From Aquabacterium sp. (GTDB taxonomy: Bacteria > Pseudomonadota > Gammaproteobacteria > Burkholderiales > Burkholderiaceae_C): 64,000 bases of DNA. The DNA lies in the NCBI RefSeq assembly GCF_016195855.1, contig NZ_JACPYU010000003.1:496001-560000 (forward strand). Direction: 5' to 3'. Positions 16,112 to 36,802 of this stretch are shown here, piece by piece (the stretch's first letter is position 1; the number at the start of each line of letters is the position of its first letter). Under the pieces are notes generated by a model. The model searched no databases and was not told the DNA's origin. It saw only the letters and a list, made by a program, of their open reading frames with translations. Made by a program: the position numbers and the translations under genes.

Positions 16112-16127
16112 TACGTTAATTGACGTA
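16112..16127. promoter_or_regulatory. Inverted repeat operator A, shared with urtC and amiE
   Basis: TACGTTAATTGACGTA is an inverted repeat TACGT-N6-ACGTA in the divergent region between the NCS1-kinase gene and urtA. Its reverse complement, TACGTCAATTAACGTA, differs from the sites before urtC and amiE only in the centre. It ends 133 bases before the urtA start and 83 bases before the kinase start, so one site could serve both directions. Confidence 0.75.
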
Positions 16128-16156
16128 TTCATGGAAAACCCGCTCGTCCGTACTGT
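16128..16156 (+). promoter_or_regulatory. Candidate urtA promoter next to operator A
   Basis: TTCATG starts directly after the repeat and TACTGT lies 17 bases downstream. Neither is a strong hexamer, which fits an activator-dependent promoter. The same geometry is seen at the amiE site and, with a weaker -10, at the urtC site. Confidence 0.5.
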
Positions 16157-16260
16157 TGCACCCAAGGCCGCAACAAGCGGTGCCGGGTTCCCGCAGTATC
16201 CAAAGGACCTTGCACCAAAGCGCGGCATCGGCAACCCGTTTTTGTGCAAGGAGTCCTTTC

Positions 16261-17514
16261 ATGTCGAAGACCGAAAAAGATCTGTCCCTCAACCGCCGTC
16301 GCGTCCTGCAAGGCCTGGGTGCCGTCCCGCTGATGGGCGTCACCGGCCTGAGCTATGGTGCGCCACCGGCCACCTCGGTCGTCAACACGACCAAGCTGGC
16401 CGTGACCGATACCGAGGTCATCGTGGGTCAGCTGCATTCGGCCACCGGCACCATGGCCATTTCGGAAACCGGCTCGATCCAGGCCGAGCAACTGGCCATT
16501 GACCAGATCAACGCCATGGGCGGTGTGCTGGGCCGCAAGATCAAGGTGATCAAGGAAGACGGCGCATCCGACTGGCCGACGTTTGCCGAGAAGTCCAAGA
16601 AGCTGCTGGTCAACGACAAGGTGGCCTGCGTGTTCGGCTGCTGGACATCGGCCTCGCGCAAGGCCGTGCTGCCCATCTTCGAAAAGGAAAACGGCCTGCT
16701 GTACTACCCCACCTTCTATGAAGGCCTGGAGCAGTCCAAGAACGTGATCTACACCGGCCAGGAAGCCACGCAGCAGATCATCTGGGGCCTGGACTGGGGC
16801 GCCAAGGAGAAGAAAGCCAAGACTTTCTTCCTCGTGGGTTCGGACTACATCTGGCCGCGCACCTCGATGAAGATCGCCCGCAAGCACATTGAGAGTGTGG
16901 GCAAGCTGGGCAGCGTGGTGGGTGAAGAGTACTACCCGCTGGGCAACACCAACTTCAACTCCCTGATCAACAAGATCAAGGTGGCCAAACCCGACTGCAT
17001 CTTCGCCGCCGTGGTGGGGGGCTCCAACGTGGCGTTCTACAAGCAGCTCAAGGCAGCGGGCATCACCGGCGCCAAGCAGTTCCTGCTGACCCTGTCCGTG
17101 ACCGAGGACGAAATGCTGGGCGTGGGCGGCGAGAACTTCGCCGGCTTCTACTCGTCGATGAAGTACTTCCAGTCCCTGCCCAACGACAACAACAAGAAGT
17201 TCGTTGAAGCCTTCAAGAAGGCTTATGGGCCCAAGTCGGTGATCGGCGACGTGACGCAGGCCGGCTACCTGGGCCCCTGGTTGTGGAAGGCCGCGGTCGA
17301 GAAGGCCGGCAGCTTCGATGTGGACAAGGTCGTGGCGGCCTCACCGGGCATCGAGCTCAAGACCGCGCCCGAGGGCTACGTGAAGCTGCACGACAACCAC
17401 CACTTGTGGAGCCGGGCACGCATTGCACAGGGGCAGCCAGACGGGACGTTCAAGGTCGTGGCCGAGTCCAAGGACTTGATCGAACCCAACCCCTTCCCTA
17501 AAGGCTATCAATAA
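16261..17514 (+). CDS. urtA: UrtA/FmdD-type amide or urea ABC transporter binding protein
   Basis: A 417-residue periplasmic binding protein of the type 1 (Leu/Ile/Val-like) fold. It has a twin-arginine style leader ([16 protein letters not shown]). Family segments include VGQLHSATGTMAISETG, EDGASDWPTFAEKSKKLL and FGCWTSASRKAVLPIFEK, all typical of UrtA and of FmdD, the short-chain amide binder of methylotrophs. The start at 16261 has an AAGGAG site upstream. Because formamidase fmdA and fmdB end this gene run and no urease is in the window, formamide or other short amides are as likely as urea as ligand. Confidence 0.92.
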   Translation: MSKTEKDLSLNRRRVLQGLGAVPLMGVTGLSYGAPPATSVVNTTKLAVTDTEVIVGQLHSATGTMAISETGSIQAEQLAIDQINAMGGVLGRKIKVIKEDGASDWPTFAEKSKKLLVNDKVACVFGCWTSASRKAVLPIFEKENGLLYYPTFYEGLEQSKNVIYTGQEATQQIIWGLDWGAKEKKAKTFFLVGSDYIWPRTSMKIARKHIESVGKLGSVVGEEYYPLGNTNFNSLINKIKVAKPDCIFAAVVGGSNVAFYKQLKAAGITGAKQFLLTLSVTEDEMLGVGGENFAGFYSSMKYFQSLPNDNNKKFVEAFKKAYGPKSVIGDVTQAGYLGPWLWKAAVEKAGSFDVDKVVAASPGIELKTAPEGYVKLHDNHHLWSRARIAQGQPDGTFKVVAESKDLIEPNPFPKGYQ

Positions 17515-17569
17515 ACGCCACCCAAGGCGAAGCCAGTCACGTAGTCGCACAACCCAATCCAGCAAACAC

Positions 17570-17637
17570 CGCGGAGCCGGCTTTGCCGGTCCGCTGGTGG
17601 TGCCCCCTTGAGGGGGCGGCCGGAGGCCGTAGGGGGA
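17570..17637. repeat. GC-rich intergenic hairpin repeat between urtA and urtB
   Basis: Two adjacent palindromes fill the gap: GCGGAGCCGGC-TTT-GCCGGTCCGC (17571-17594) and CCCCCTTGAGGGGG (17603-17616), followed by a GGCCGGAGGCC stem. The pattern matches REP-like elements dispersed in Comamonadaceae and related Burkholderiales. In the transcript it would form stable stems that could lower urtB expression relative to urtA or protect the urtA message. Confidence 0.65.
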
Positions 17638-17642
17638 GAGTT

Positions 17643-18557
17643 ATGTCCTTTGCTGAAATGATGAACATCGGCCTGATGCAGGGCTTTGCAGGCTTGAGCC
17701 TGTTCTCTGTCCTGCTGCTCATGGGCCTGGGTCTGGCCGTGATCTTTGGCCAGATGGGTGTGATCAACATGGCCCATGGCGAGTTCATGACCATTGGTGC
17801 CTACACCGTGTACATGGGCTCGACGCTGACGGAGAAATACGCACCGAATCTGGTGCAGGCCTACTTCCCGTTTGCCATCGTGGCGGCCTTTGTGATTGCC
17901 TTTGGTGTGGGCTGGCTGACCGAGTGGGCCTTGATCCGCCACCTCTACAAACGCCCGCTGGACACCTTGCTGGCCACCTGGGGCCTGAGCCTGGGTTTGC
18001 AACAGGTGTTCCGCACGGCCATCGGCCCCAAGGAGGTCAGCCCCACGCTGCCTGACTGGTTGATGGGCTCGTGGTCACCACATGAAGGCCTGGACATCCC
18101 CATCAACGGCATGTTCGTGATGGGCCTGACCGCCCTGGTCACCGTGCTGCTGATGATCGCGCTGTACAAGGCCCGTTGGGGCTTGCGTGTGCGCGCCACC
18201 GTGAGCAACCGCGTGATGGCCAATGCGATTGGCATCAACACGAAGCAGACCGACCGCCTGACCTTTGCGATTGGCTGCGGCATCGCCGGTGTGGCAGGCG
18301 CGGCCTTCACCACCATCGGCTCCACGGGCCCCACCAGCGGCTCGCTCTACATCGTCGACTCCTTCCTGGTCGTGACCTTCGGCGGCGCCGGCAGCTTGCT
18401 GGGCACGGTGGCATCGGCCTTTGGCATCGCCCAGACGCAGTCGATCAGCGAATTCTTCATGACGGGCTCGAACGCCAAGGTGCTCACGCTGCTCACGGTG
18501 GTGACCATCCTGATGCTGCGCCCGCAAGGCCTGTTCCCCTCGAAGGTGCGTCGGTGA
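17643..18557 (+). CDS. urtB: UrtB-type ABC transporter permease
   Basis: A 304-residue branched-chain-type permease with about eight hydrophobic helices, including the family start LGLAVIFGQMGVINMAHGEFMTIGAY and the cytoplasmic-loop segment RVMANAIGINTKQTDRLTFAIGCG. It forms the inner membrane channel with UrtC. The start at 17643 follows an AGGGGGAGAG site supplied by the end of the intergenic repeat; the frame is open further upstream but only through repeat sequence. Its end is 19 bases from the convergent PEP-CTERM gene. Confidence 0.93.
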   Translation: MSFAEMMNIGLMQGFAGLSLFSVLLLMGLGLAVIFGQMGVINMAHGEFMTIGAYTVYMGSTLTEKYAPNLVQAYFPFAIVAAFVIAFGVGWLTEWALIRHLYKRPLDTLLATWGLSLGLQQVFRTAIGPKEVSPTLPDWLMGSWSPHEGLDIPINGMFVMGLTALVTVLLMIALYKARWGLRVRATVSNRVMANAIGINTKQTDRLTFAIGCGIAGVAGAAFTTIGSTGPTSGSLYIVDSFLVVTFGGAGSLLGTVASAFGIAQTQSISEFFMTGSNAKVLTLLTVVTILMLRPQGLFPSKVRR

Positions 18558-18576
18558 CTGAGGGCGGGCAAGACCA

Positions 18577-19263
18577 TCAGGCCTTTCTGCGCCGCAGCCC
18601 GCCCCGCATCGCCAGCACCGCCGCACCAGCGACACCCATGGCCCATGCAGCCGGCTCGGGCACCGCGGTGCCGAAAGCGATCTCCTGCCGCTCGGTGATG
18701 CGCCACTCGGCATGCCCCCCGTCGCCGGGCTGTTCAGGCACCCACACCAGAGCCTGCTTCTCGATCGCGGCCAGCCCTGCGATGCTGTCCCGCCGCTCGA
18801 AAGCCTTCTCGACAAGCTCGGTGCCTTGCGGCAAGAACAGATCACTGCAGGCGCAGCTGTAGGTCAGATCGATCGTGCCGACATCCCTCTGCACATCGCT
18901 GTAGTCGATGCGGCCTCGCATACGCAAAACCGTTCGGCTGGCACCGTTGGGGAAGAGGTAGTTGTCCACCACAAAGTCTTGTGGCTGCTGGGTGCCCCAG
19001 ACCAAGGTCAGGCCATCACGCTGCTCGACCACCCAGCCCAACAAGCCCTCGGCCTGCCCCGTGAACCGGCGCCAGCTGACCCCGTCATCCTGCACCACGG
19101 TGTCGGTGGCCTGCGTTGCCAGCGGCACCACATTGACCAGCCCAAAAATGACATGCCTTTGTGCGTCGTTCGCGCTGAAACGCAACTCGAAAGCCTCAGA
19201 CGCAGTGAAGGCCAGCGCAAGCGCGCTGCCTGCAGCCACAGACAACCACCTTGATTTCTTCAT
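18577..19263 (-). CDS. PEP-CTERM sorting domain protein inside the urt gene run
   Basis: A 228-residue secreted protein. It begins with a signal peptide (MKKSRWLSVAAGSALALAFTA) and ends with the exosortase sorting signal VPEPAAWAMGVAGAAVLA followed by RRRKA, so it should be processed and linked to an exosortase/EPS system. The middle is a beta-rich domain I do not recognise, with a CAC cysteine pair. It lies on the opposite strand between urtB and urtC, so urtC needs its own promoter. Exosortase itself is not in the window. Confidence 0.85.
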   Translation of the reverse strand: MKKSRWLSVAAGSALALAFTASEAFELRFSANDAQRHVIFGLVNVVPLATQATDTVVQDDGVSWRRFTGQAEGLLGWVVEQRDGLTLVWGTQQPQDFVVDNYLFPNGASRTVLRMRGRIDYSDVQRDVGTIDLTYSCACSDLFLPQGTELVEKAFERRDSIAGLAAIEKQALVWVPEQPGDGGHAEWRITERQEIAFGTAVPEPAAWAMGVAGAAVLAMRGGLRRRKA

Positions 19264-19316
19264 GGGGCGCTCCTTGAGCCTGTTGCGGGCATGGTGACTT
19301 AGGCGAAGCCCGATGC

Positions 19317-19332
19317 TACGTCATTCAACGTA
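19317..19332. promoter_or_regulatory. Inverted repeat operator B before urtC
   Basis: TACGTCATTCAACGTA is the same TACGT-N6-ACGTA repeat as before urtA and amiE. It shares TACGTCA, AACGTA and the following TTG with the amiE site. It lies 68 bases before the urtC start, in the divergent gap with the PEP-CTERM gene. Confidence 0.75.
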
Positions 19333-19361
19333 TTGAGGCACGCGGGTCCACCCCATAACCT
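19333..19361 (+). promoter_or_regulatory. Candidate urtC promoter next to operator B
   Basis: TTGAGG starts directly after the repeat and TAACCT lies 17 bases downstream (CATAAC two bases earlier is an alternative -10). It would give urtCDE and fmdAB a promoter of their own under the same activator. Confidence 0.45.
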
Positions 19362-19400
19362 GAGCACATGCAAGCTCGTTCATCCCGCCGGAGTATGCCT

Positions 19401-20594
19401 ATGACCCCGTTTCCCTTTCTGTCACGCGCCCCAAAGCTGGGCAGCATCGCGCTGCTGGCCCTGCTGCTGATCGTCGTCTTCCCCCTCACGCTGGACATCT
19501 TCCGACTCAACCTGATCGGCAAGTACCTGACCTACGCCTTCGTGGCGCTCGGCCTGGTCATGCTGTGGGGCCATGCCGGCATCCTCAGCCTGGGCCAGGG
19601 CGTGTTCTTCGGCCTGGGTGGCTACATGATGGCCATGTTCCTCAAGCTGGAGGCGTCTGACCCCATCGCCACCAAGATCCAGTCCACACCGGGCATCCCG
19701 GACTTCATGGACTGGAACCAGCTCACGGCCCTGCCCTCCTGGTGGGTGCCCTTCAAGAGCCTGCCGCTGGCCTTGATTGCCGTGCTCGTGGTGCCCACGC
19801 TGCTGGCCTTCATCATCAGCTACGCGATGTTCAAGCGGCGTGTGGGGGGCGTGTACTTCGCCATCATCACGCAGGCCGTGGCCTTGATCCTGACCGTGCT
19901 GATCATCGGCCAGCAGGGCTACACCGGCGGGGTGAACGGCATCACCGATCTGAAGACCATGCTGGGCTGGGACATTCGCACCGACCATGCCAAGTACATC
20001 CTGTACTACGTGTGCGTGGGCCTGTTGCTGGCGGCCGTGTTCCTGTGCCGCTGGGTGCAGTCGTCCAAGCTGGGCACGCTCTTGCTGGCCATGCGCGACA
20101 AGGAAGACCGCGTGCGCTTCTCTGGCTACGACGTGGCCATGTTCAAGGTCTTCGCCTTCTGCCTGGCTGCCATGTTGTCGGCCATCGGTGGCGCCATGTT
20201 CACCTTGCAGGTGGGCTTCATGTCGCCGTCTTTCGTGGGCATCGTGCCATCCATCGAGATGGTGATCTTTGCCGCAGTGGGCGGCCGCATGAGCCTGGTG
20301 GGCGCGATCTACGGCGCCCTGCTGGTGAACTTTGGCAAGACCTACTTCTCGGAGAGCGCACCTGATCTGTGGCTGTTCCTGATGTCGGGCCTGTTCATCG
20401 GCGTGACCATGGCCTTCCCCGATGGCCTGGCCGGCCTGGTGGAGCAAAAGCTCAAGCCCTGGTGGACCAGGCGGCAGGCTGATCGCGCCGCGCAGGCCGA
20501 GCGCATCAAGGCTGCGCACGCCGCCTACCCCAATGCGCTTCCACCCAGCAAGGGCAACGGCATGCCGCCCGGCATCAGCAGCCAGCAAGCCTGA
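19401..20594 (+). CDS. urtC: UrtC-type ABC transporter permease
   Basis: A 397-residue permease of the LivM/UrtC type with about ten helices. Recognisable segments are ALGLVMLWGHAGILSLGQGV, KRRVGGVYFAIITQAVAL and SGYDVAMFKVFAFCLAAMLSA. The ATG at 19401 is chosen because GGAG lies seven bases upstream; two earlier in-frame ATGs (19368, 19395) have worse spacing. The C-terminal ~40 residues are a charged, proline-rich tail. It heads the urtCDE-fmdAB run. Confidence 0.92.
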   Translation: MTPFPFLSRAPKLGSIALLALLLIVVFPLTLDIFRLNLIGKYLTYAFVALGLVMLWGHAGILSLGQGVFFGLGGYMMAMFLKLEASDPIATKIQSTPGIPDFMDWNQLTALPSWWVPFKSLPLALIAVLVVPTLLAFIISYAMFKRRVGGVYFAIITQAVALILTVLIIGQQGYTGGVNGITDLKTMLGWDIRTDHAKYILYYVCVGLLLAAVFLCRWVQSSKLGTLLLAMRDKEDRVRFSGYDVAMFKVFAFCLAAMLSAIGGAMFTLQVGFMSPSFVGIVPSIEMVIFAAVGGRMSLVGAIYGALLVNFGKTYFSESAPDLWLFLMSGLFIGVTMAFPDGLAGLVEQKLKPWWTRRQADRAAQAERIKAAHAAYPNALPPSKGNGMPPGISSQQA

Positions 20595-20625
20595 ATCATC
20601 CAGCCATTGACGAAGGAGCCACCTC

Positions 20626-21384
20626 ATGAGTGCAGCCCCCACCAAAGCCAAAGAGTTCGTTCTCTACATCGAAGACCTCACCGTGTCTTTTGACGGCTTC
20701 AAGGCCATCGACAACCTGAACCTGTATGTGGACAAGAACGAGCTGCGCGTGATCATTGGCCCCAACGGCGCCGGCAAGACCACCCTGCTCGATCTGATCT
20801 GCGGCAAGACCAAGGCCAGCAACGGCAGCATCAAGTTCAAGGACGAAGAGCTGACCAAAAAGCCCGAGCACCAGATCGTGCGCTCGGGTGTGGGCCGCAA
20901 GTTCCAGACACCCTCCATCTACGAGAACCTCAGCGTCTTCCAGAACCTGGAGGTGTCTTTCCCGCGTGGCCGCAGCGTGCTGGGTGCACTGGGCTTCAAG
21001 TGCACCGACGAGGTCAAGGCCCGCGTGCAGGTGGTGGCCGAGGAGATCGGCCTGGCTGACAAGCTGGATACCGAAGCAGGCTTGCTGTCGCACGGCCAGA
21101 AGCAATGGCTGGAGATCGGCATGTTGCTGATGCAGGAGCCCGAGCTGCTGATGCTGGACGAACCCATCGCCGGCATGAGCGCCAAGGAGCGCGAGCAGAC
21201 TGCCGAGCTGCTCAAGCGCATCTGCAAGAACCGCTCGATGATCGTGATCGAACACGACATGGCTTTCGTGGCGCAGATCGCCTCGAAGGTGACGGTGATG
21301 CACCAGGGAAAGATCCTGGCCGAGGGGACGATGGACCAGGTCCAGAGTGATCCGAAAGTCATTGACGTCTATCTCGGCCACTGA
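20626..21384 (+). CDS. urtD: UrtD-type ABC transporter ATP-binding protein
   Basis: A 252-residue ATPase of the branched-chain/urea transporter family. Walker A is GPNGAGKTT, the Q-loop region is GRKFQTPSIYENL, the signature motif reads LSHGQKQWLEIG and Walker B is LLMLDEP followed by IAGMS; the switch His is in IVIEHDM. The LSHGQ form with QWLEIGMLL is typical of UrtD. AAGGAG precedes the start. It pairs with UrtE to energise the UrtBC channel. Confidence 0.95.
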   Translation: MSAAPTKAKEFVLYIEDLTVSFDGFKAIDNLNLYVDKNELRVIIGPNGAGKTTLLDLICGKTKASNGSIKFKDEELTKKPEHQIVRSGVGRKFQTPSIYENLSVFQNLEVSFPRGRSVLGALGFKCTDEVKARVQVVAEEIGLADKLDTEAGLLSHGQKQWLEIGMLLMQEPELLMLDEPIAGMSAKEREQTAELLKRICKNRSMIVIEHDMAFVAQIASKVTVMHQGKILAEGTMDQVQSDPKVIDVYLGH

Positions 21385-21395
21385 AGGGGATCAAC

Positions 21396-22085
21396 ATGCT
21401 GGAAGTCAAAGACCTGTTCGTGAGTTATGGCCAGAGCGAGGCGCTGCACGGCATCTCATTCGAGGCCAACAAGAATGAAACCGTGGCCATCATGGGCCGC
21501 AATGGCATGGGCAAGACCACGCTGTTCAAGAGCCTGATGGGCGTGCTGCCCACCAAGTCCGGCGAGATCAGCGTGGCGGGCCACAGTGTGGCCAAGGACG
21601 AGAGCTACAAGCGCGTGGCCTCGGGGCTTGCCTATGTGCCCCAAGGCCGCATGATCTTCCCCACTTTGACGGTGGAAGAGAACATCCAGACCGGCCTGGA
21701 GAACAGCAAGAGCAAGAAGATCCCCGATGAGATCTACGCCCTCTTTCCCGTGCTGTTCGACATGCGCGGCCGCAAGGGCGGCAACCTGTCGGGCGGCCAG
21801 CAACAGCAACTGGCCATTGCGCGAGCACTGGTCACCAACCCCAAGGTGCTGCTGCTGGACGAGCCCACCGAAGGCATCCAGCCTTCGATCATCAAGGACA
21901 TCGCCAAGGCGCTCAACGAGATCCGCAAGCTGCGCGAGATCACGATCGTGGTGTCCGAGCAGGTGCTGTCCTTTGCGATGGACGTGGCCGATCGGCTCTT
22001 CGTGATCGAAGGCGGCCGACTGGTGCATGAAACAACCCGCACCAACACCGATGCCGACCGCATCAAGGCATACCTGTCTGTATGA
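21396..22085 (+). CDS. urtE: UrtE-type ABC transporter ATP-binding protein
   Basis: A 229-residue second ATPase of the transporter. Walker A is GRNGMGKTT, the Q-loop region YVPQGRMIFPTLTVEEN, the signature LSGGQQQQLAIARAL and Walker B LLLDEPTEGIQPSI. The GRNGMGKTT and GIQPSI forms are the usual ones for UrtE/LivF. It starts 11 bases after urtD and is followed by a repeat element and fmdA. Confidence 0.95.
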   Translation: MLEVKDLFVSYGQSEALHGISFEANKNETVAIMGRNGMGKTTLFKSLMGVLPTKSGEISVAGHSVAKDESYKRVASGLAYVPQGRMIFPTLTVEENIQTGLENSKSKKIPDEIYALFPVLFDMRGRKGGNLSGGQQQQLAIARALVTNPKVLLLDEPTEGIQPSIIKDIAKALNEIRKLREITIVVSEQVLSFAMDVADRLFVIEGGRLVHETTRTNTDADRIKAYLSV

Positions 22086-22090
22086 ACCAG

Positions 22091-22158
22091 GCCCCCCAGC
22101 TTGTCGCTTCGCGCCTTCGCTACCCCCCCGTCTGGCTTGGGGCGGCCCGGCGCCAGAC
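22091..22158. repeat. GC-rich intergenic hairpin repeat between urtE and fmdA
   Basis: The gap contains GCCCCCCAGCTTGTCGCTTC, a run of seven C, and an inverted repeat GTCTGGC (22130-22136) / GCCAGAC (22152-22158) enclosing GGGGCGGCCCGG. This is another dispersed Burkholderiales-type element, related in layout to the one between urtA and urtB. It may attenuate or stabilise transcript between transporter and formamidase. Confidence 0.55.
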
Positions 22159-22190
22159 CTTTCAGCACTTACTGACACTAGGAGTTTTTC

Positions 22191-23420
22191 ATGGCTGACA
22201 CCCTGATCAAAGTCGACCTGACCCAATCGCCCACCCTGAACGAGAACATCCACAACCGCTGGCACCCGGACATCCCGATGGCCTGCTGGGTGAACCCCGG
22301 CGACGAATTCATCCTGGAGACCTTCGACTGGACGGGCGGCTTCATCAAGAACAACGACTCGGCCGATGACGTGCGCGACATCGACCTGAGCACCGTGCAC
22401 TACCTCAGCGGCCCCGTGGGTGTGAAAGGTGCCGAGCCTGGCGACCTGCTGGTGGTGGACCTGCTGGACATCGGCGCCAAGCAGGACAGCCTGTGGGGCT
22501 TCAACGGTTTCTTCAGCAAGCAGAATGGCGGAGGATTCCTGACCGAGCACTTCCCCCTGGCGCAGAAGTCCATCTGGGACATCCATGGCATGTTCACCAA
22601 GAGCCGCCATGTACCCGGTGTGAGTTACGCGGGCCTGATCCACCCGGGCCTCATCGGCTGCCTGCCCGACCACAAGATGCTGGAGATGTGGAACACGCGC
22701 GAGCAAGAGCTGATCGACTCGGCGCCCGATGTCACGGGCCTGGCCAACCCTCCCTTTGCCGGCACCGCCCACATGGGCAAGCTCACTGGTGAAGCCAAGG
22801 AAAAGGCCGCCGCCACTGCCGCCCGCACTGTGCCCCCGCGCGAACACGGCGGCAACTGCGACATCAAGGACCTGTCACGCGGCTCCAAGGTCTACTTCCC
22901 CGTGTATGTGGATGGGGCGGGCCTGTCCGTCGGTGACCTGCACTTCAGCCAGGGCGATGGCGAGATCACCTTCTGCGGGGCCATCGAGATGGCCGGCTGG
23001 GTACACATGAAGGTCACGCTGATCAAGGGCGGCATGGCCAAGTACGGCATCAAGAACCCCATCTTCAAGCCCAGCCCCATCAAGCCCGTCTACAACGACT
23101 ACCTGATCTTTGAAGGCATCTCGGTGGACGAGCAAGGCAAGCAGCTCTACCTGGATGTGAACGTGGCCTACCGCCAGGCCTGCCTCAACGCCATCGAGTA
23201 CCTCAAGAAGTTCGGCTACAGCGGCGCGCAGGCCTACTCCATCCTGGGCACGGCACCGGTGCAGGGCCACATCAGCGGCGTGGTCGACGTGCCCAATGCC
23301 TGCGCCACCTTGTGGCTGCCCACCGAGATCTTCGACTTCGACATCAACCCGACGGCCGCCGGGCCCACGAAGTTCCTGGATGGCAGCATCGACATGCCGA
23401 TCTCGCCTGACCTCAAGTAA
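22191..23420 (+). CDS. fmdA: Formamidase, FmdA/AmdA family
   Basis: A 409-residue cytoplasmic enzyme of the FmdA_AmdA family, hydrolysing formamide to formate and ammonia and, in relatives, acetamide. Family segments include IHNRWHPDIPMACWVNPGDEF, HYLSGPVGVKGAEPGDLL, PREHGGNCDIKDLSRGSKVYFPV and DLHFSQGDGEITFCGAIE. It has no sequence relation to the nitrilase-fold amidase encoded at 36867. TAGGAG precedes the start. It follows the ABC transporter genes and precedes fmdB, the order known from methylotroph and Burkholderiales amide clusters. Confidence 0.95.
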   Translation: MADTLIKVDLTQSPTLNENIHNRWHPDIPMACWVNPGDEFILETFDWTGGFIKNNDSADDVRDIDLSTVHYLSGPVGVKGAEPGDLLVVDLLDIGAKQDSLWGFNGFFSKQNGGGFLTEHFPLAQKSIWDIHGMFTKSRHVPGVSYAGLIHPGLIGCLPDHKMLEMWNTREQELIDSAPDVTGLANPPFAGTAHMGKLTGEAKEKAAATAARTVPPREHGGNCDIKDLSRGSKVYFPVYVDGAGLSVGDLHFSQGDGEITFCGAIEMAGWVHMKVTLIKGGMAKYGIKNPIFKPSPIKPVYNDYLIFEGISVDEQGKQLYLDVNVAYRQACLNAIEYLKKFGYSGAQAYSILGTAPVQGHISGVVDVPNACATLWLPTEIFDFDINPTAAGPTKFLDGSIDMPISPDLK

Positions 23421-23437
23421 GCGCCAGGAGCACGCCT

Positions 23438-23791
23438 ATGCCCACCTATGACTATGCGTGCCCGAGCTGCGGTGGCTTCGACGCCTTTCGCAGCCTGGCC
23501 CAACGCAATGACCCTTGCGCCTGCCCCGACTGCGGCACGGACTCGGCACGCGTGTTCGTGAGCGCGCCGCGGCTGGCCTGTGTGAGCAGCGACACACGCA
23601 CGGCCATGGAGACCAATGAGCGCGCGCAACACGCGCCCATGTCATCCAAGGAATACGGAGGGTATCAACGGCTCAAGCACCCTTCGGGCTGTGGATGCTG
23701 CGCGCCAGGGGCCAAGCGCAGCGCCACCGTCAAGGCGGCCAACGGGAACAAGATGTTCCCATCCAAACGGCCCTGGATGATCAGCCATTGA
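23438..23791 (+). CDS. fmdB: FmdB-type zinc ribbon protein
   Basis: A 117-residue protein with the FmdB/CxxC zinc ribbon: MPTYDYACPSCG at the start and a second pair around CACPDCG (Cys8, Cys11, Cys29, Cys32). The C-terminal half is polar and ends with a GCGCC cluster. FmdB was proposed as a regulator of formamidase in Methylophilus; it could equally help metallation. It starts 17 bases after fmdA and ends the run. Confidence 0.9.
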   Translation: MPTYDYACPSCGGFDAFRSLAQRNDPCACPDCGTDSARVFVSAPRLACVSSDTRTAMETNERAQHAPMSSKEYGGYQRLKHPSGCGCCAPGAKRSATVKAANGNKMFPSKRPWMISH

Positions 23792-23818
23792 CGGTCCCCA
23801 ATCGGGCAACTCGGCAAC

Positions 23819-24268
23819 TCAGGCAGCACGCACACCCGTGATGTAGTGCTCCAGTTGCTCGATGATGAACTGCTGCTCGGAGATGATGCCCTTGACCAGG
23901 TCCCCGATGGAGATCATGCCCAGCAGCTGGCCGTTTTCCATGACGGGCAAGTGGCGCAGGCGGTTTTCCGTCATCAGCGCCATGCACTCGTCGCTGGTCT
24001 GGCTGGGCCGCACATACATCACCGCCGAGGTCATGATCTCGCGCACCTCGGTCTCGCGGGACAGGCGGGACATGAGCGCGATCTTGCGCGCGTAGTCCCG
24101 CTCGGTGACGATGCCCACCACATGCCCGCCATCCATCACCAGCAGGGCGCCGATGCCCTTCTCCGCCATCAATACCAGCGCGTCATACACCGAGGCCGTG
24201 GGCGAGATGGTGTAGACGGTCTGGCTTTGTTTGCCTCTGAGGACTTCTGCGACTGTGGTCACGGCCAT
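23819..24268 (-). CDS. CBS domain pair protein
   Basis: A 149-residue protein consisting of two CBS domains (~15-75 and ~80-140), with segments ALVLMAEKGIGALLVMDGGHVVG and ECMALMTENRLRHLPVMENG. Such stand-alone Bateman modules bind adenosyl compounds or NAD and are common in betaproteobacteria. The ATG at 24268 (MAVTTVAEVLRG) is where similarity to such proteins begins, although a GGAG lies unusually close to it. No target is evident. Confidence 0.88.
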   Translation of the reverse strand: MAVTTVAEVLRGKQSQTVYTISPTASVYDALVLMAEKGIGALLVMDGGHVVGIVTERDYARKIALMSRLSRETEVREIMTSAVMYVRPSQTSDECMALMTENRLRHLPVMENGQLLGMISIGDLVKGIISEQQFIIEQLEHYITGVRAA

Positions 24269-24293
24269 GCTCCAGAAAGATCGCTGCACACCG

Positions 24294-24806: not shown

Positions 24807-24908
24807 GGTGACCTCCTGTCGGCGCAGGCACACGCACGCCACGCCGCACTTCGCTTCTACGCCTGCGTCAGCGCGCCGGCAAGAATAGCCATGAGGCGGC
24901 CAGGGTGG

Positions 24909-25487: not shown

Positions 25488-25551
25488 GGGGGGCTCCGGA
25501 TTGGGTCGAAGCCCATCTTAAGCGGTGATCACCGCCGCGCAGCCCGCCCGC

Positions 25552-26004: not shown

Positions 26005-26098
26005 GACGCGGTTCTCCCTTTTTTGAAACCGCGATAGCTTACCGGCAAGCGCCCCCCATTGGCGCTGGAGCAGGTGCCTCAGGCAGGGGGGTGGCTGC

Positions 26099-26671: not shown

Positions 26672-26833
26672 GACGATGCGGTTGGGAGAGAGGGGGGAGA
26701 TCAAGTTCAAAAGCCATGATCTCACCAGCCTCACCGCTCAGGCTTCAGGGATTGCCTGCCCCGCAAACGCGTTAGGCGCGCTTGGCAATGTCGTCAAATC
26801 GCCCGGCATCACGGCAAAGCCGCACCTCAACCG

Positions 26834-27580: not shown

Positions 27581-27610
27581 GGATCAGATCACAAACAACG
27601 GACCAGCACA

Positions 27611-28876: not shown

Positions 28877-29148
28877 CTGGAACCTCTTGTGTGTTGTCTT
28901 GGTTGTTGGGGTCTGGTGCGAAGCGCAGTCTGCGCAAGGCCCTCCAGGTGGCCAACAAGGACTAACCCGAACGGGTTATCACCAGCACTCAAACAGGGGA
29001 GAAACAAGTGTCAGACGACTTACATTCCGCACCGTTTCCCCCAGGAGAACAGCATCTACTAGGGGTTTTCTTCAATAAACACAGGGCTTCCAGATCATTA
29101 GCCTGAAAAACGTTGTTATTTTTCAAATCAACGTTTCAGGATGTCACC

Positions 29149-30639: not shown

Positions 30640-30641
30640 CC

Positions 30642-31772
30642 ATGCAGGCACCGGAGCAAACCGACACGTTCATCGTCGGCGCGGGGCCTGCAGGCCTGGC
30701 GGTGGCAGCCTGCCTCAAGCGCGAGGGCCGGTCCTTCGTGATGGTGGAGCGCCAGGCCCAGTTGGGCCACGCCTGGCGCACGCATTACGACCGCCTGCAT
30801 CTGCACACGGACAAGGCGCACTCGTCCCTGCCCCACTTCAAGCTGCCACCGCATTACCCACGCTACCCCTCGCGCCAGCAGGTGGTGGACTACCTTGAAG
30901 CCTATGCGCGGCACTTCAACCTGCACCCGCGTTGCGATGAAGCCGCCCTGGACGCACGCAGGCTTGGCTCGCACTGGGATGTCACCACGAGCCAGGGGCG
31001 CTATCAGGCACGCTCGCTGGTGGTGGCCAGCGGCTACAACAATGAGCCGCAGATCCCGACCTGGCCTGGGCAGGCGCAATACCAGGGCCAGATCCTGCAC
31101 AGCAAGCACTACCGCAATGGCTCAGCCTTCAAGGGCAAGGACGTGCTGGTGGTTGGCCTGGGCAACTCGGGCGGCGAGATGCTGATCGACCTGCACGAGC
31201 ACGGCGCCCGTCCCTGCATCGCCGTGCGCAGTCCCGTCAACGTGATCCCGCGCGAGGTCATGGGCGTGCCCTTTCTCACCATGGGCATCTTGCAGCGCAA
31301 CATGCCCGCACGCCTGGTGGACAAGCTCAACGCGCCCATCACCAATGCCATCATCGGGGACCTGCGGCCTTATGGGCTGCGCCGCCCCGCTGAAGGGCCC
31401 ATCACCCAGATCCGCGAGCAAGGGCGCGTGCCTTTCATCGACGTCGGCACCATCCAGCTGATCAAGCAGGGGCACGTCACCGTCTACCCCAACATCGAGT
31501 GCTTCACGCCTGATGGTGTGATGTTCGTCGACGGCCGCCAGCAAAAGGTGGACGCGGTGGTGCTGGCCACGGGCTTTCGGCCTGCGGTGCACCACTGGCT
31601 GCACACCACGCGCGACGCGGTGGACGAACACGGCACGCCCCGGTTCAGCGGGCAGGTGGTGGCAGGCCAGAACCTGTACTTCTGCGGCTTCTACATTTCA
31701 CCCACCGGCATGCTGCGCGAGATCGCCATGGAGGCCAAGGACATCGCCCAGGACATTGCCAGGGCGGCTTAA
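30642..31772 (+). CDS. YUCCA/FMO-like flavin-containing monooxygenase
   Basis: A 376-residue cytoplasmic enzyme. FAD motif GAGPAGLAVA lies near residue 14, the FMO-type segment YQGQILHSKHY near 155 and the NADPH motif GLGNSGGE near 175; ATGFRP near the end is also typical. The closest familiar group is the YUCCA/indole-pyruvate monooxygenase-like FMOs, but amine or ketone monooxygenases share these motifs. The ATG at 30642 comes directly after the amine oxidase stop, so the two are coupled. Because the oxidase carries a Tat signal and this enzyme does not, they may act in different compartments. Confidence 0.85.
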   Translation: MQAPEQTDTFIVGAGPAGLAVAACLKREGRSFVMVERQAQLGHAWRTHYDRLHLHTDKAHSSLPHFKLPPHYPRYPSRQQVVDYLEAYARHFNLHPRCDEAALDARRLGSHWDVTTSQGRYQARSLVVASGYNNEPQIPTWPGQAQYQGQILHSKHYRNGSAFKGKDVLVVGLGNSGGEMLIDLHEHGARPCIAVRSPVNVIPREVMGVPFLTMGILQRNMPARLVDKLNAPITNAIIGDLRPYGLRRPAEGPITQIREQGRVPFIDVGTIQLIKQGHVTVYPNIECFTPDGVMFVDGRQQKVDAVVLATGFRPAVHHWLHTTRDAVDEHGTPRFSGQVVAGQNLYFCGFYISPTGMLREIAMEAKDIAQDIARAA

Positions 31773-31929
31773 TGGCCAGATACCGAGCCGAATCGAGAGA
31801 AAAGTCGCTCATCGGCAGATCGGTGTGCTGGCCGGCATCAAGAATCAAGCGGCCAGACCGACAAACAGGAAAAGGTCGGCGCCTCGGCGCCCTGCCCTTG
31901 CGCTGCCCTGCTTTGGTCTGGTCGTCTAC

Positions 31930-33162
31930 ATGCTTTCTGCCCCGAATCCACAGCCTCATGCGCCTCTGCTGACCGAGACGGCATCGCCCCCCGCGCAGCC
32001 GCTTGGCACCAAGGCGCCGCAAGGCTCGCAGCAATCGCTCAACCAGGCCCTGATCGACACCACCTCCCGCATCATGGGTGCGATGTACGTCTACCTGGCC
32101 CTGTGGCTGGTGATCACGCTCGTCGCGGGCTTGCAGAAGACGCATCCGCAACTGGTATGGGGCACCACCATCTGGCTGGGTGCGATCGCGGCAACGCGTG
32201 CCCTGGTCGCGCACCAGCTCCACAGCCTGCTGGACCACAGCCCTGCCCTGGCGCACCGCCTCACCGTGGGCCTGGTGCTGGTCAACGGCCTGACCTGGGG
32301 CTTGCTGACGGCCGCCAGCGTCCAAATCCCCTCGTTCGAACCCATCCGGACATCCATGCTGCTGGTCAGTGTGGGGCTGAGTTCTGGCGGCACCGTGGCC
32401 ATGGCCATCAACCCGACACTCAAGGTGTGGTTCCCCGTCTCGGTGATCGCCCCGGTGGCCATCGCCACCGCCACCCACGCCTCGGACAGCAACTTCATGC
32501 TGGCCTGCCTGATGGTGGTCTACACCGTGTACGTGATGCACTCGGCCCGAACCGTGAGCCAGGACTACTGGCGGGCGCAGGAGGCCTTTCGCGCGCTGGA
32601 GCACGCCAGCCTGACCGACCCGCTGACCCAGGTGCCCAACCGCCTGCACTTCGAGCGGCAATACCAGATCGAATGGCGCCGCGCCTGCAGGTTGAACACC
32701 CGCATCGCGGTGATGATCGTGGACCTGGATCACTTCAAGCGCGTCAACGACGAACATGGCCACCCAGCCGGGGACATCGTCCTGCAGGAAGCCGCCAAGG
32801 CCATGAGCGCGGCCATCATGCGCCCATGTGATGTGCTGGCCCGCTATGGTGGTGAAGAGTTCATCGTGCTGCTGCCCGAGATCACGGAAGAAGGGGCCCA
32901 GGTTGTGGCCGAACGCCTGCGCACCCAGGTCGAGAAGCTCGAGATCGCCTTGCCATCCAGCACCATCCACATCACCTGCAGCGTGGGCTATGCCTGCCTC
33001 GTGCCTGGACATGAGCTGGACGCGGACGACATGGTCCGGCAGGCCGACCAGGCGCTCTACGGGGCCAAGACAAGCGGGCGCAACCGCTGCCAGGGGTGGA
33101 CCCTGCCCGCCACGCAGGAGGCCAGCTTGCAACCTGCCGAGACCGACGACGCCATCTTGTGA
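31930..33162 (+). CDS. Membrane diguanylate cyclase
   Basis: A 410-residue protein with about six hydrophobic helices (residues ~50-205) and a C-terminal GGDEF domain. The active site is RYGGEEF, and an inhibitory RxxD site (RPCD) lies exactly five residues before it, so product inhibition by c-di-GMP is expected. The segment LTDPLTQVPNRLHFE marks the domain start. The ATG at 31930 is taken because the upstream frame reads through a low-quality stretch behind the FMO gene. Confidence 0.92.
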   Translation: MLSAPNPQPHAPLLTETASPPAQPLGTKAPQGSQQSLNQALIDTTSRIMGAMYVYLALWLVITLVAGLQKTHPQLVWGTTIWLGAIAATRALVAHQLHSLLDHSPALAHRLTVGLVLVNGLTWGLLTAASVQIPSFEPIRTSMLLVSVGLSSGGTVAMAINPTLKVWFPVSVIAPVAIATATHASDSNFMLACLMVVYTVYVMHSARTVSQDYWRAQEAFRALEHASLTDPLTQVPNRLHFERQYQIEWRRACRLNTRIAVMIVDLDHFKRVNDEHGHPAGDIVLQEAAKAMSAAIMRPCDVLARYGGEEFIVLLPEITEEGAQVVAERLRTQVEKLEIALPSSTIHITCSVGYACLVPGHELDADDMVRQADQALYGAKTSGRNRCQGWTLPATQEASLQPAETDDAIL

Positions 33163-33251
33163 TCAGGCCTGCGGGCTCGGGCTGTGGCGTGCTGGAAATC
33201 GCTCTAACATGGCACGCCCGCTGAACACGCCATCCCTTCCCCTGGCCCCGC

Positions 33252-33857
33252 ATGAGCCTGCCCGTTCTGTACTCGTTTCGACGCTGCCCTTACGCCATCC
33301 GCGCGCGCCTGGCCTTGCGTTACGCCCAGGTACCGTATGAGCTCAAGGAAGTGGCCCTGCGCGACAAGCCGGCCGAGATGCTGGCCTTGTCACCCAAAGG
33401 CACGGTGCCCGTGCTGCACCTGCCAGATGGCCGCGTGCTGGAACAAAGCCTGGACATCATGCTGTGGGCGCTGGCACAGCGCGACCCGGATGGCTGGTTG
33501 AGCGCGGCGCCGGCCGAGGCCATGCAGGCACTGATCGATGCCAACGACCTGCGCTTCAAGCCCTTGCTGGACCGCTACAAATACGCCGAGCGCCACCCCG
33601 AACAATCACGCGAGGCCTGGCGTGCGCGCGCCGTGGACGCGCTGCTGATGCCACTGGAGTCGCGGCTGCAAACCCACCCTTACCTGCTGGCCGACCGCAT
33701 CAGCCTGGCTGACATGGCCCTGCTGCCCTTCGTGCGGCAATTTGCCCAGGTCGACCGGGCCTGGTGGGACGAAGCCGCCAAGCTGCCGGCCCTGGCCCGA
33801 TGGCTGGACCAGTTGACCGACAGTGCGCTGTTTCAGGCCGTCATGGCGCGCGCCTGA
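33252..33857 (+). CDS. Glutathione S-transferase family protein
   Basis: A 201-residue protein with an N-terminal thioredoxin-fold domain (VLYSFRRCPYAIRARLAL, then GTVPVLHLPDGRVLEQSLDI, the glutathione-binding VP and SxDI elements) and a C-terminal helical domain ending in ADMALLPFVRQFAQVD. The CPYA motif with a single Cys is of the omega/beta kind. Substrate is unknown. It follows the diguanylate cyclase by 89 bases. Confidence 0.9.
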   Translation: MSLPVLYSFRRCPYAIRARLALRYAQVPYELKEVALRDKPAEMLALSPKGTVPVLHLPDGRVLEQSLDIMLWALAQRDPDGWLSAAPAEAMQALIDANDLRFKPLLDRYKYAERHPEQSREAWRARAVDALLMPLESRLQTHPYLLADRISLADMALLPFVRQFAQVDRAWWDEAAKLPALARWLDQLTDSALFQAVMARA

Positions 33858-33879
33858 AGGCCAGTTCGCCGACAGAGGC

Positions 33880-35556
33880 TCACAAGCCCAGCCCCAAGGC
33901 CGTGGCCGTGTCCCACAGCAGGCACTGATGCTTGCTGTAGATGCCCCCCAGGTAGTTGGTCGACACCTTGGCTGCCGACAGCTGCTGCGTGGCCGCGATC
34001 ACGCTGTTGAAACGCGGCCAGTTCAGTTGTCCGCCGCCATTGGGGTCACCGGTTGCGGCAAAGCGCCCCCAGTACTGCACCATCCTCGCCGACAGGGCGA
34101 GTTGCGCAGGCGTGGCCACATCGTTGGGATCAGGGCTGGCTGGCGTTGTCGCAATGCGCGACTGGAACAGGAAAGGCAGCTCGGACGCGTGATAGGCGCC
34201 CCACGCCATGAAGGGATCAGCCACCAGCGGCGGCACCTGCTCTTCCTGGAACTCGTAGGCATAAGTCGACACATAGGCAGACAGGCTGCGCGCCGACATC
34301 TGCGAGCCGCAGGCAAACAGGGCATCGGTCATCAAGGCCGAAGCGGCCAGATCGGGCGAGCCCAGGCGCTTGCTGGAATAGTCCAGGGTGATGATGGACG
34401 CCACCGCCGCATTGCCCGCAATGCCGGTGACCAGGGCCTGGTACTCGGCTTCGGTCAAGGGTGCACCACGATGCAGGTCATACGCCAGCGCGATGAACAG
34501 CCGGCCCTCGTCCTTCGTATTGCCCACCATCATGGGCACGCGGTTGAACTTACCTTGTTTGACCAGGTCCTTGGGCGCGGCGGGCAGGATCACCCCATCC
34601 ACCCAGGGCGACAGCGCCAGCAGGCTGCTCGGGTCAGTGAAATCGATGGAAGGCGCGGCGTTGAAGACCTCGTCCGAGGACTTGCTGCGCAGGCAGGTCA
34701 ACTGCGAGGGGCCCGCAGCACAGCCCAGCTTCTGCGCCAGTGCATTGCCTGTGGCCAAGGCCTTGGCACGGGTCAAGGTGCCGGCCGTACACGGTCCACT
34801 TTGCATGATGGCGCGCTGGAACAGTCCCGCAGCCGAGGGTGACACCAGCTGCTGGCAGACGCTGATGCTGCCTGCGGACTGACCAAAGATGGTCACGCGC
34901 CGAGGATCGCCCCCAAAGCCCGCGATGTTGTGCTGCACCCAGCGCAAGGCTGCTTGCTGGTCCTGCAAGGCATAGTTGCCGGCCTGGCTCTCGGCGCTCA
35001 AGGCATCCAGTGCCAACAAGCCGAAGATGCCCAGGCGGTAATTGATGGTCACCACGATGGCGCCGGTGCTTTGCGCCAGGCGGCTGCCATCGTATTGCGA
35101 TCCGGCCCCCGTCACAAAGGCCCCGCCATGGATCCACACCATCACCGGCACGGCACTGCCAGGCTGGACGCCCGGCGGCACGTTGACATTGAGGTAGAGG
35201 CAGTCTTCGCTGGAATTCGGCACACCCGCTGGTGGCAGCGCCCCATCCTGCTTGCACGCCTGCCCGGCCTGATCAGCGACGCGCACGCCGCCCCAAGGCT
35301 GAACAGGCGCGGGCGCCTTCCAGCGCAGGTCACCAATGGGCGGCTGGGCAAACGGCAGGCCCTTGTAAACCATGCCCCCGTCCTGCCCGGCCACGCCCTG
35401 CACCCAACCCGCCTCCGTCTGCACCGAGGCAGGCGCGGCCTGGGCAGCACCTATCCAGCCTGCCGTGGCCATCATCACAGTGGCCACGCAGGCCTTCGTT
35501 GCCAGGCGCGCCTGGCGCCACAACCCATATGGCTTCATCGCTTGATCTTGCTGCAT
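33880..35556 (-). CDS. Type-B carboxylesterase, exported
   Basis: A 558-residue alpha/beta-hydrolase of the carboxylesterase/para-nitrobenzyl esterase family. A signal peptide of about 39 residues ends AAQAAP. The nucleophile motif is FGQSAGSISV, with Gln where most members have Glu (GESAG). The acid is in NTKDEGRLF and the His in GAYHASELPFLF; the oxyanion loop is MVWIHGGAF. The start at 35556 follows AGGAGA. It is divergent from the AraC gene at 35719, which may control it. Confidence 0.9.
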   Translation of the reverse strand: MQQDQAMKPYGLWRQARLATKACVATVMMATAGWIGAAQAAPASVQTEAGWVQGVAGQDGGMVYKGLPFAQPPIGDLRWKAPAPVQPWGGVRVADQAGQACKQDGALPPAGVPNSSEDCLYLNVNVPPGVQPGSAVPVMVWIHGGAFVTGAGSQYDGSRLAQSTGAIVVTINYRLGIFGLLALDALSAESQAGNYALQDQQAALRWVQHNIAGFGGDPRRVTIFGQSAGSISVCQQLVSPSAAGLFQRAIMQSGPCTAGTLTRAKALATGNALAQKLGCAAGPSQLTCLRSKSSDEVFNAAPSIDFTDPSSLLALSPWVDGVILPAAPKDLVKQGKFNRVPMMVGNTKDEGRLFIALAYDLHRGAPLTEAEYQALVTGIAGNAAVASIITLDYSSKRLGSPDLAASALMTDALFACGSQMSARSLSAYVSTYAYEFQEEQVPPLVADPFMAWGAYHASELPFLFQSRIATTPASPDPNDVATPAQLALSARMVQYWGRFAATGDPNGGGQLNWPRFNSVIAATQQLSAAKVSTNYLGGIYSKHQCLLWDTATALGLGL

Positions 35557-35718
35557 GCCTGCTGTCTCCTGGTGCTGTTGATGGGCGCATTGTGGGCAGC
35601 TGCGGGCAAGCTCGGGTTGTCATTTCCTTGCGTCCAACTATCATTTTTCAGCAGCCGAACACGCCCCTGGTGAAAGCCCCTAAGCCTTCATCGCACTGCC
35701 CACGACAGCATCCAAGAC

Positions 35719-36759
35719 ATGAGCAAAACCCCCAAGGTCCCGGCCCGCTATGTCGCGCTGCTGGTCCAGCATCTGGAAGCGCAAGGCACCGATTGCACGC
35801 AAGCGCTGGCCCAGGCCGGGATCACCCGTGCGAGCCTGCGCCACATCGATGCCCAACTGCCGTCGGATCAGATCGTCTCGGCCACGCGCCTGCTGACCGA
35901 GGCCAGTGGCGGCCAACGCGACCTGGGCATGCGCATCGGCGCCCTGATGGGCCCAGGTCAGTTGGGGGAGCTGGGCCTGGCCATGCTGAGTTGCGCCAAC
36001 ATCAAGGACAGCCTGGACCTGTGCGCCCGCTACTACGTGCTGGTGACCCCCAGCTTCTCCCTGCGCACCCGCATGCTGGGGTCGCTCTACGAGCTGTGCT
36101 GGCAACCCATCCAGGCCGTCCCCTACGATGTGATGGTCATGGCCTATGACCTGACCTTGATGAACTTTCACACCCGCATGCACAGCCTGTTGCGCGACGA
36201 CATGCCTGGCTATGACGCCTACCTGTTCTCATCGGCCCCGGCAGATCAACATCGCTACAACGCGCTCAAGCCGGCACGCTGCCATTTCGGGCAAGAGGGG
36301 CTGCCCAGCTTGCGCATCCTCATTGATGCCGAGGTGCTGTCGCGCACACCCATGCCCATGGCCCACGCCAGCGACCTGGCCGACATCCAGCGGCGCCTGG
36401 ACCTCAAGCTGCTTCACCACCTCAAGCAGGATCAGCGGGACTGGAAAGCCTGGGTCACCATGATGCTCAAGGAAGCACAAGGCCACCAGCCCACGCAGGA
36501 CGAACTCGCCGCCATCGTGAACCTGTCCGCCAGCACGCTGGCGCGCCACCTGGCGGCCCAGGACACGAGCTTTCGAGACCTGACCAACGAGATCCGACAC
36601 GAACGCGCCTGCCAGTGGCTGCAAGAAGGCCAGTTGCGCGTGGCCGACGTGGCCGACCTGCTGGGCTACACGAACCCGGCCAACTTCATCCGCGCCTTCA
36701 AGGCCAGAGCGGGCGTGAGCCCGGCCCAGTACGGCAAGGCACAGGCCAGCCGCACCTGA
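35719..36759 (+). CDS. AraC family transcriptional regulator, OruR/arabinose-binding type
   Basis: A 346-residue regulator with a long N-terminal ligand domain of the Arabinose_bd/OruR type ([18 protein letters not shown] at the start) and a C-terminal AraC DNA-binding domain ending [28 protein letters not shown]. It lies between the divergent carboxylesterase and amiE, so either could be a target; the carboxylesterase shares the promoter gap, while amiE has the TACGT-N6-ACGTA site. Confidence 0.92.
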
Positions 36760-36786
36760 CCCAAGCAAAAGCGCGACCTGATCCCG

Positions 36787-36802
36787 TACGTCAAACAACG
36801 TA
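36787..36802. promoter_or_regulatory. Inverted repeat operator C before amiE
   Basis: TACGTCAAACAACGTA is the third copy of the TACGT-N6-ACGTA repeat, about 17 kb from the site before urtC. It ends 64 bases before the amiE ATG, with its centre near -43 from the predicted transcription start, a usual place for an activator that touches the -35 region. Confidence 0.75.

Follow-up and report, generated by a model that had tools for sequence, protein, structure and literature searches.

Genes and palindromes at the amide locus

We analyzed a 64,000-nt window of an Aquabacterium sp. genome (contig NZ_JACPYU010000003.1, positions 496,001 to 560,000, assembly GCF_016195855.1), in which copies of a 16-bp palindrome stand before genes predicted to import and break down amides. 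The window contains exactly three copies of TACGT-N6-ACGTA, given here on the plus strand. Operator 1, TACGTTAATTGACGTA (16112..16127), lies before urtA and is divergent from a sensor kinase gene; operator 2, TACGTCATTCAACGTA (19317..19332), lies before urtC; and operator 3, TACGTCAAACAACGTA (36787..36802), lies before amiE. In general form, the palindrome is TACGTYR-NN-YRACGTA. A sequence-only reading of this DNA had already reported these positions and letters, together with urtA-urtB, urtCDE-fmdAB, and amiE as the genes behind the three sites, and all of this was confirmed in the window. We consider it highly probable that the palindrome is the operator of a LuxR/NarL-type response regulator (11895..12563), that a kinase with a membrane domain of predicted NCS1 fold senses an amide and, through this regulator, activates the amide genes, and that a urea twin of the system is insulated by a changed recognition helix.

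The regulator gene (11895..12563, minus strand) encodes a receiver domain (REC; PF00072, E value 8.6e-27) and a C-terminal GerE helix-turn-helix domain (PF00196, E value 1.8e-19) with the recognition helix SHRTVNKHL; its product is the proposed operator-binding activator. The adjoining gene (12547..16023, minus strand) encodes a hybrid sensor kinase with a membrane domain of predicted NCS1 fold, a Cys-rich stretch, and HisKA, HATPase, and REC domains, as judged from Pfam, a structure model, and Foldseek. Its start codon is uncertain (GTG at 16023, or an open frame up to TTG at 16110).

On the plus strand, urtA encodes the binding protein of an ABC importer (16261..17514; NCBIfam TIGR03407) and is followed by the permease genes urtB (17643..18557; TIGR03409) and urtC (19401..20594; TIGR03408). 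The ATPase genes urtD (20626..21384) and urtE (21396..22085) were named from reading frame, sequence, and operon order. Next come fmdA, encoding formamidase (22191..23420; NF045496), and fmdB, encoding a zinc-ribbon protein (23438..23791; TIGR02605). The aliphatic amidase gene amiE lies apart (36867..37907; NF009802). In the window, the UrtA, UrtB, and UrtC models were all matched above their cutoffs. Both UrtA copies of this genome exceeded the cutoff of the UrtA model; thus, this model does not separate urea from amides. The urt set in the window shares an operon with formamidase, and the other copy lies near urease; the cargo of the UrtA encoded at 16261..17514 is probably short-chain amides.

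Conservation of the operator, its promoters, and the two-component pair

A search of the whole genome (29 contigs, 4,875,293 bases), which the sequence-only reading had suggested, returned the same three sites and no others, all of them before genes for amide import or breakdown. In 100 dinucleotide shuffles of the window, the mean number of sites was 0.00, and a hand estimate puts the probability that three points placed at random in 4.88 Mb lie within 20.7 kb at about 5e-5. The other 41 genus genomes contain 66 sites, of which 30 precede urtA, 22 amiE, and 2 urtC (54/66, at 57 to 152 bp from the gene start); the remaining 12 lie elsewhere.

Among these 12, four operator-like palindromes (TACGTCAAATGACGTA and kin) occupy a similar place, by eye beside recQ (L034:8591, L071:8640, L081:1057, and L084:8543). 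The sites of L081 and L084 adjoin the gene identified by eye as recQ, a porin-like gene follows the site in L084, and L034 and L071 have a common thioesterase-like neighbor gene at a similar distance from the site. Perhaps these palindromes bring an amide porin into the regulon, or perhaps they form hairpins. The L054 site is part of a larger GC-rich palindrome resembling a terminator. The remaining seven sites had no adjoining amide gene from the query set among the neighbors listed.

The regulator was detected in 34 of the 42 genus genomes (32 at E values up to 1e-45, plus diverged copies in G014 and G020). In 33 of these 34, an exact site was present at urtA, urtC, or amiE; in the remaining genome, G035 (82% complete), a site with one mismatch is located at amiE. 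None of the eight genomes lacking the regulator has a site at any of the three genes.

Furthermore, relatives were fetched by a search with the kinase membrane domain, in which the operator was not used. This search gave 574 relatives, of which the best 80 were kept; its record titles include Aquabacterium, Variovorax, Polaromonas, Rhodoferax, Rhizobacter, Methyloversatilis, and Acidovorax. An exact operator was found at most 450 bp before the kinase gene in 74 of the 80 loci and a one-mismatch operator in 4 (L119, L130, L157, and L169), and 2 loci were cut off by a contig end. Two control patterns were found in 0 of the 80. Seventeen of these loci (L092 to L108) repeat genus loci, so that the tallies over all loci (103/107 and 30/30, below) contain repeats, which are absent from the 80-locus test and from the counts of distinct regulators. 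When urtA genes with at least 50% identity were considered over all loci, 103 of 107 (85 distinct sequences) had an exact operator within 450 bp upstream, and the other four (L066, L119, L130, and L157) had a one-mismatch operator.

At the level of the order, TACGTYRNNYRACGTA was detected in 21 of 200 genomes, in 15 of them in a cluster with kinase and regulator and in 6 outside such a cluster (G043, G066, G085, G157, G206, and G224). In the class, 17 of 369 genomes had the kinase domain at E values up to 1e-60. Seventeen loci from the 16 other class genomes included 6 with an exact operator (L230, L233, L234, L236, L238, and L240) and 2 with a one-mismatch operator (L241 and L242).

An alternative is that another local regulator binds the palindrome, namely the AraC-type protein encoded at 35719..36759 (plus strand; Pfam), whose gene lies next to amiE and directly before operator 3, or FmdB, which is termed a positive regulator of formamidase in the available part of PMC13209695. 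We regard this as very unlikely, because the pair of NCS1-type kinase and LuxR-type regulator accompanies the site in nearly all kinase-fetched loci, only 3 of the 22 amiE loci in the genus have a relative of the AraC protein (at least 70% identity) next to amiE, and in Pfam FmdB is a zinc ribbon and has no helix-turn-helix. Both candidates were rejected on these last two grounds.

The promoters were compared in a set of 64 with less than 75% likeness downstream, every one of which had been selected for an exact operator. In 55 of the 64, the next two bases after the operator are TT, and in 58, NANNNT begins at operator position 40, corresponding to a 17-bp spacer (next-best offset, 11); the stricter TANNNT is present at this position in 29. 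This is the geometry that had been proposed for the three sites of the window, with a -35-like hexamer at the next base and a -10 element 17 bp further on. On the plus strand, the predicted promoters are TTCATG and TACTGT for urtA (16128..16156; geometry conserved), TTGAGG and TAACCT for urtC (19333..19361), and TTGGCC and CACAAT for amiE (36803..36831), each with 17 bp between the hexamers. By sequence comparison, operator, -35-like TT, and -10 element are conserved as one unit, and with the start site deduced in this way the operator would span about -51 to -36. A plain sigma-70 scan of positions 15900 to 19500 found no promoter. Such poor -35 and -10 hexamers are as expected for activator-dependent promoters.

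The promoter geometry also bears on whether the palindromes are RNA hairpins or terminators. TACGT and ACGTA are able to pair, and the folding of sites 1 and 3 is somewhat stronger than that of shuffled sequences (z, -1.78 and -2.44). However, site 2 folds no better than shuffles (z, 0.07), the inner letters are unpaired in most amiE copies, and a site upstream of the -35 element is outside the transcript of its own promoter. We therefore rejected this most improbable explanation and retained that of a protein-binding operator.

The operator also follows the arrangement of the operons. In most relatives, urtABCDE-fmdAB are contiguous, and a single operator precedes urtA. Different stretches separate urtB from urtC in the window, L066, and L078 (repeated as L104), and urtC is preceded by an operator in each of these loci; none was seen at this place in loci with adjoining urtB and urtC. 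In the window, the separating gene (18577..19263, minus strand) encodes a PEP-CTERM-type protein with a weak PF07589 match just below the cutoff. As urtB and urtC adjoin in most relatives, for example in the close relative L046, it was not counted as part of the putative regulon.

For amiE, the distance to fmdB was related to the presence of an own operator. All 14 amiE genes located 14 to 502 bp behind fmdB lacked one, and all 30 located at least 414 bp behind fmdB or elsewhere (repeats included) had one. The two distance ranges overlap slightly, at 414 bp with and 502 bp without an operator. The 30 genes comprise 22 from operator-fetched loci, that of the window, and 7 found through the kinase (L103, L122, L124, L130, L147, L151, and L171). 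A direct search of the genus gave 31 amiE copies in 30 genomes, of which 20 had an exact operator and 4 a one-mismatch operator (G001, G020, G035, and G036). In three loci (L036, L044, and L087), a diverged amidase gene (54 to 56% identity to amiE) was observed with its own operator, TACGTCAATCGACGTA in the gene-ward reading.

A probable urea twin with a changed helix and a changed operator

The same genome contains a second kinase-regulator pair at C27:47.3-51.8 kb, with an identity of 48% and, in the receiver, of 57%. It lies between urease genes (ureA, ureB, ureC, and ureG, NCBIfam) and a second urt set (urtA, urtC, urtD, and urtE, NCBIfam), and the region C27:38485-61653 (L172 and L229) comprises the urease genes, the paralogous kinase and LuxR-type regulator, and this urt set. 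The recognition helix of this regulator is SPATVKKQL, in contrast to SHRTVNKHL in the amide regulator (T-type motif, S[HP]RTVNKH). Upstream of the second urtA we found TACGCCACATGGCGTA, followed by TT and then by CACACT at the same spacing. The operator of this gene, TACGCCANNTGGCGTA, differs from the amide operator by one symmetric base change.

Accordingly, we distinguish the T operator described above from a C operator with the core TACGCCA-NN-TGGCGTA. TACGCC-N4-GGCGTA occurs at a single site in the own genome and at 33 sites in 31 of the 42 genus genomes, and TACGC-N6-GCGTA has no match in the window. In five loci, the C operator is located 94 to 131 bp before the second urtA.

The correspondence between helix and operator was tallied for 130 distinct regulators of the two helix types, with operators counted within 9 kb. 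Among 101 regulators with RTVNKHL, 92 had an exact T operator, 6 a one-mismatch T operator, and none a C operator; the 3 without an operator are in loci that are cut off (L110 and L111) or have no urt genes in view (L201). Among 29 with ATVKKQ, 25 had a C operator, none had a T operator, and 4 had neither (L205, L219, L224, and L228); for L219 and L224, the genome search places a C site just beyond the fetched stretch. Thus, there were 0 crossovers between helix type and operator type among the 130. When the operator-fetched loci were excluded, RTVNKHL was still associated with a T operator in 69 of 78 cases (6 with one mismatch, 3 with none), and the ATVKKQ counts were the same as before.

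Six regulators had other helices. RTISKHL was found with a T operator (L182) and RTVDKHL with a one-mismatch T operator (L178 and L210), and no operator was detected for RTVNKHM (L199), RTVHKHL (L175), and GPRTVDKHL (L213). The sites near the two RTVDKHL regulators, TACGTTAGATTGCGTA (L178:11453) and TACGTCAAATCGCGTA (L210:12007), each combine one T half and one C half, and intermediate specificity is a possible explanation for them.

Several loci separate helix type from cargo. L188 and L195, both operator-fetched, have urea-like Urt proteins (urtA, 40 to 41%) together with an RTVNKH helix and a T operator. In line with this, the kinase-fetched L238 (urtA, 47%) combines RTVNKH with an exact T operator, and L241 and L242 (urtA, 40% and 37%) combine it with a one-mismatch T operator. 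In these sequences, the operator type tracks the helix and not the cargo.

These results bear on the claim of the sequence-only reading that one activator drives an amide/urea regulon. A single regulon is well supported by the comparison, but it is more likely an amide than an amide/urea regulon, because a sister system with its own operator lies beside urease and the second urt set. The sequences thus suggest that the amide regulon and its urea twin are separate. The choice of the LuxR-type regulator at 11895..12563 as the likely binder, also made in that reading, agrees with the conservation in kinase-fetched loci and with the helix-operator correspondence; paired with the hybrid kinase, this regulator is the most likely candidate.

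The predicted sensor domain and the proposed regulation

The sensor, which was not named in the earlier finding, is predicted to be the product of the divergent gene 12547..16023 (or up to 16110), with a membrane domain of NCS1 fold fused to a hybrid histidine kinase. A first model, built from 12 near rows, was poor (predicted local distance difference test [pLDDT] score, 44.8) and was discarded. The AlphaFold2 model used was built from 73 rows (pLDDT, 85.5; predicted template modeling score, 0.87). In Foldseek, its top five PDB matches were CodB and Mhp1 (E values, 2.5e-10 for CodB and 5.8e-10 for Mhp1; template modeling score, up to 0.77 by target), which points to an NCS1 fold for the modeled domain. 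An SLC5-family membrane domain was rejected, since SLC5 members such as 5nva, 5nv9, and NIS, although of the same type of fold, scored below CodB and Mhp1. A Pfam scan of the sensor gave no STAC match, the presence of a STAC model in the library not having been checked.

Two relatives without a kinase were detected. In L234 (10830-15224), a 617-codon open frame that shares the Cys-rich tail immediately precedes fmdA-fmdB-amiE, and the intergenic region there contains an operator. In L246 (9089-14469), a relative of 540 residues lies beside ureG and ureC (named by eye). By association only, these relatives support urea or amides as ligands, and it is possible that the free-standing proteins are amide and urea importers.

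We propose the following mechanism. The NCS1-fold membrane domain of the kinase (12547..16023) would sense a short-chain amide, and the hybrid kinase would drive phosphorylation of the regulator (11895..12563). A regulator dimer would then bind the 16-bp palindrome directly upstream of the -35 element and recruit RNA polymerase to the weak promoters of urtAB, urtCDE, fmdAB, and amiE. The duplicated kinase-regulator copy would run the urea importer through TACGCCA-NN-TGGCGTA, insulated by its altered recognition helix. The operator, promoter geometry, conservation, predicted fold, and helix-operator correspondence were computed, and from them we infer binding, activation, phosphotransfer, and ligands. 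It is probable, at a lower level of confidence than the operator assignment, that a duplicated system with an NCS1-like sensor split into amide and urea lines, which are insulated in one cell by one symmetric base change in the operator (TACGTCA to TACGCCA half-sites) and a few matching helix changes (RTVNKH to ATVKKQ). In that case, domains of NCS1 fold would directly sense urea and short-chain amides, both in kinases and in free-standing importers.

Several observations weigh against this proposal. A reversed control pattern also has 3 sites in the own genome, and summed over the 42 genus genomes it has 132 compared to 69 for the operator. Since the control is at least as common, the raw number of sites is not evidence, and the case rests on site position and conservation. 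For the C operator, the reversed control has 51 sites in the genus compared to 33. The eight genus genomes without the regulator also lack amiE, and the cluster may simply have been lost. Seven of the 31 genus amiE copies have no operator within 400 bp, even when one mismatch is allowed (G002, G008, G016, G017, G031, G032, and G038); amiE is thus a frequent, not a universal, member of the regulon. In the class, 9 of the 17 kinase loci have neither an exact nor a one-mismatch operator (L231, L232, L235, L237, L239, and L243 to L246), and three of them (L232, L239, and L245) nonetheless have a regulator with RTVNKH. L235 has ATVKKH, L237 has RTIEKH, and the rest of the operator-less loci showed no regulator of this type. 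L236 contains a second kinase-regulator pair with RTVNKH that has no own operator, and L199 (RTVNKHM) and L201 (RTVNKHL) have no operator and no urt genes in view. Furthermore, the 16 rows with ATVKKQ group in one clade (SH-like approximate likelihood ratio test [SH-aLRT] support, 99) in a quick membrane-domain tree and require one change, so that the helix-operator switch is a single evolutionary event and not many. The long branches of L182, L188, L195, and L196 make some placements in this tree unsure. Finally, sequence searches of the membrane domain against PDB and Pfam (E values up to 10) found no match, including none to NCS1, and a search of the own genome with Transp_cyt_pur (PF02133; E values up to 1) gave no match either.

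L237 (5500 to 6100) was observed to have a close urtA (81%) and fmdA (77%), but its helix is RTIEKHL and TACGT-N6-ACGTA is absent in exact and in one-mismatch form. It is likely that L237 uses a different operator.

The closest precedent for the proposed regulation is CrbS/CrbR (PMC5715377; this and the other papers cited were available in part). The LuxR-family regulator CrbR of Pseudomonas fluorescens depends on an imperfect palindrome that spans -52 to -36, immediately upstream of an RpoD promoter. Both systems have a transporter domain fused to a hybrid kinase, a LuxR-type regulator, and a palindrome just before the promoter, from which, in the case of CrbS/CrbR, genes using the sensed nutrient are activated. 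The systems differ in that CrbS has SLC5 and STAC domains and responds to acetate, in contrast to a predicted NCS1 fold, a Cys-rich stretch, and probably amides here. The CrbR motif ACTU is likened to the present operator by position and not by letters. Activation from the -35-adjacent site is suggested by analogy, because the CrbR geometry is the same.

This comparison also bears on the alternative that the palindrome serves a repressor or general nitrogen control, with the two-component system merely nearby. The cluster is of the nitrogen-scavenging type, and a palindrome adjoining the -35 element could also block RNA polymerase. However, more than three genome sites would be expected for general nitrogen control, the operator and the recognition helix of the regulator family change together, the weak -35 and -10 boxes resemble those of activated promoters, and the position from which CrbR acts is the same (PMC5715377). 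We therefore consider this alternative unlikely and favor activation by the regulator at 11895..12563.

By its fold, the sensor would stand outside the SLC5/STAC family (CrbS, CbrA, and RpuS), and we infer by analogy that its way of working is alike. RpuS/RpuR of Sinorhizobium fredii also combines a transporter-fused kinase, a LuxR-type regulator, and an uptake operon, but it has an SLC5/STAC sensor, an imperfect direct repeat instead of a palindrome, and pyruvate as the signal (PMC9100948); the main text of that paper makes no mention of NCS1 or nucleobase. The same gene sets were described in Pseudomonas veronii, where the Urt system of a urtABCDE-fmdAB-amiE cluster was suggested to carry formamide (PMC13209695), and in Ectopseudomonas guguanensis, where a LuxR-family two-component pair lies beside a second urtABCDE (PMC13296017); in the available parts of these papers, no operator, sensor fold, or regulon is described. 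GrtK/GrtR (PMC12918730) was set aside, as the available text describes an ammonia system. In the open-licence literature searched, as far as its text was available, we found neither this operator nor a kinase fused to an NCS1 domain described, which is no proof of absence.

In Pseudomonas, amide-dependent control of amiE is exerted by AmiR, an RNA-binding antiterminator, together with the AmiC sensor. The present system is alike in the amide-dependent control of an aliphatic amidase that we propose, but AmiC/AmiR differs in acting by antitermination. AmiC/AmiR control of amiE is also covered in the available part of PMC13209695. Neither AmiC nor AmiR turned up in a Pfam scan of ten window proteins, which did not include those encoded on the far side of amiE.

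If correct, the proposal would provide a complete testable regulon (sensor, regulator, operator, promoters, and targets) for amide nitrogen use in many Burkholderiales, in which the Urt clusters carry urea-importer names from family models. The amide and urea twins in one genome constitute a natural pair in which operator and helix changed together, so that exchanging very few bases and residues would suffice to test the specificity and insulation of the paralogues. NCS1 would thereby join the transporter folds that serve as kinase sensors.

Behind the regulator gene, a second membrane histidine kinase is encoded (10436..11782, minus strand; Pfam). Only some of the genus loci have this kinase next to the regulator; it might feed the same regulator.

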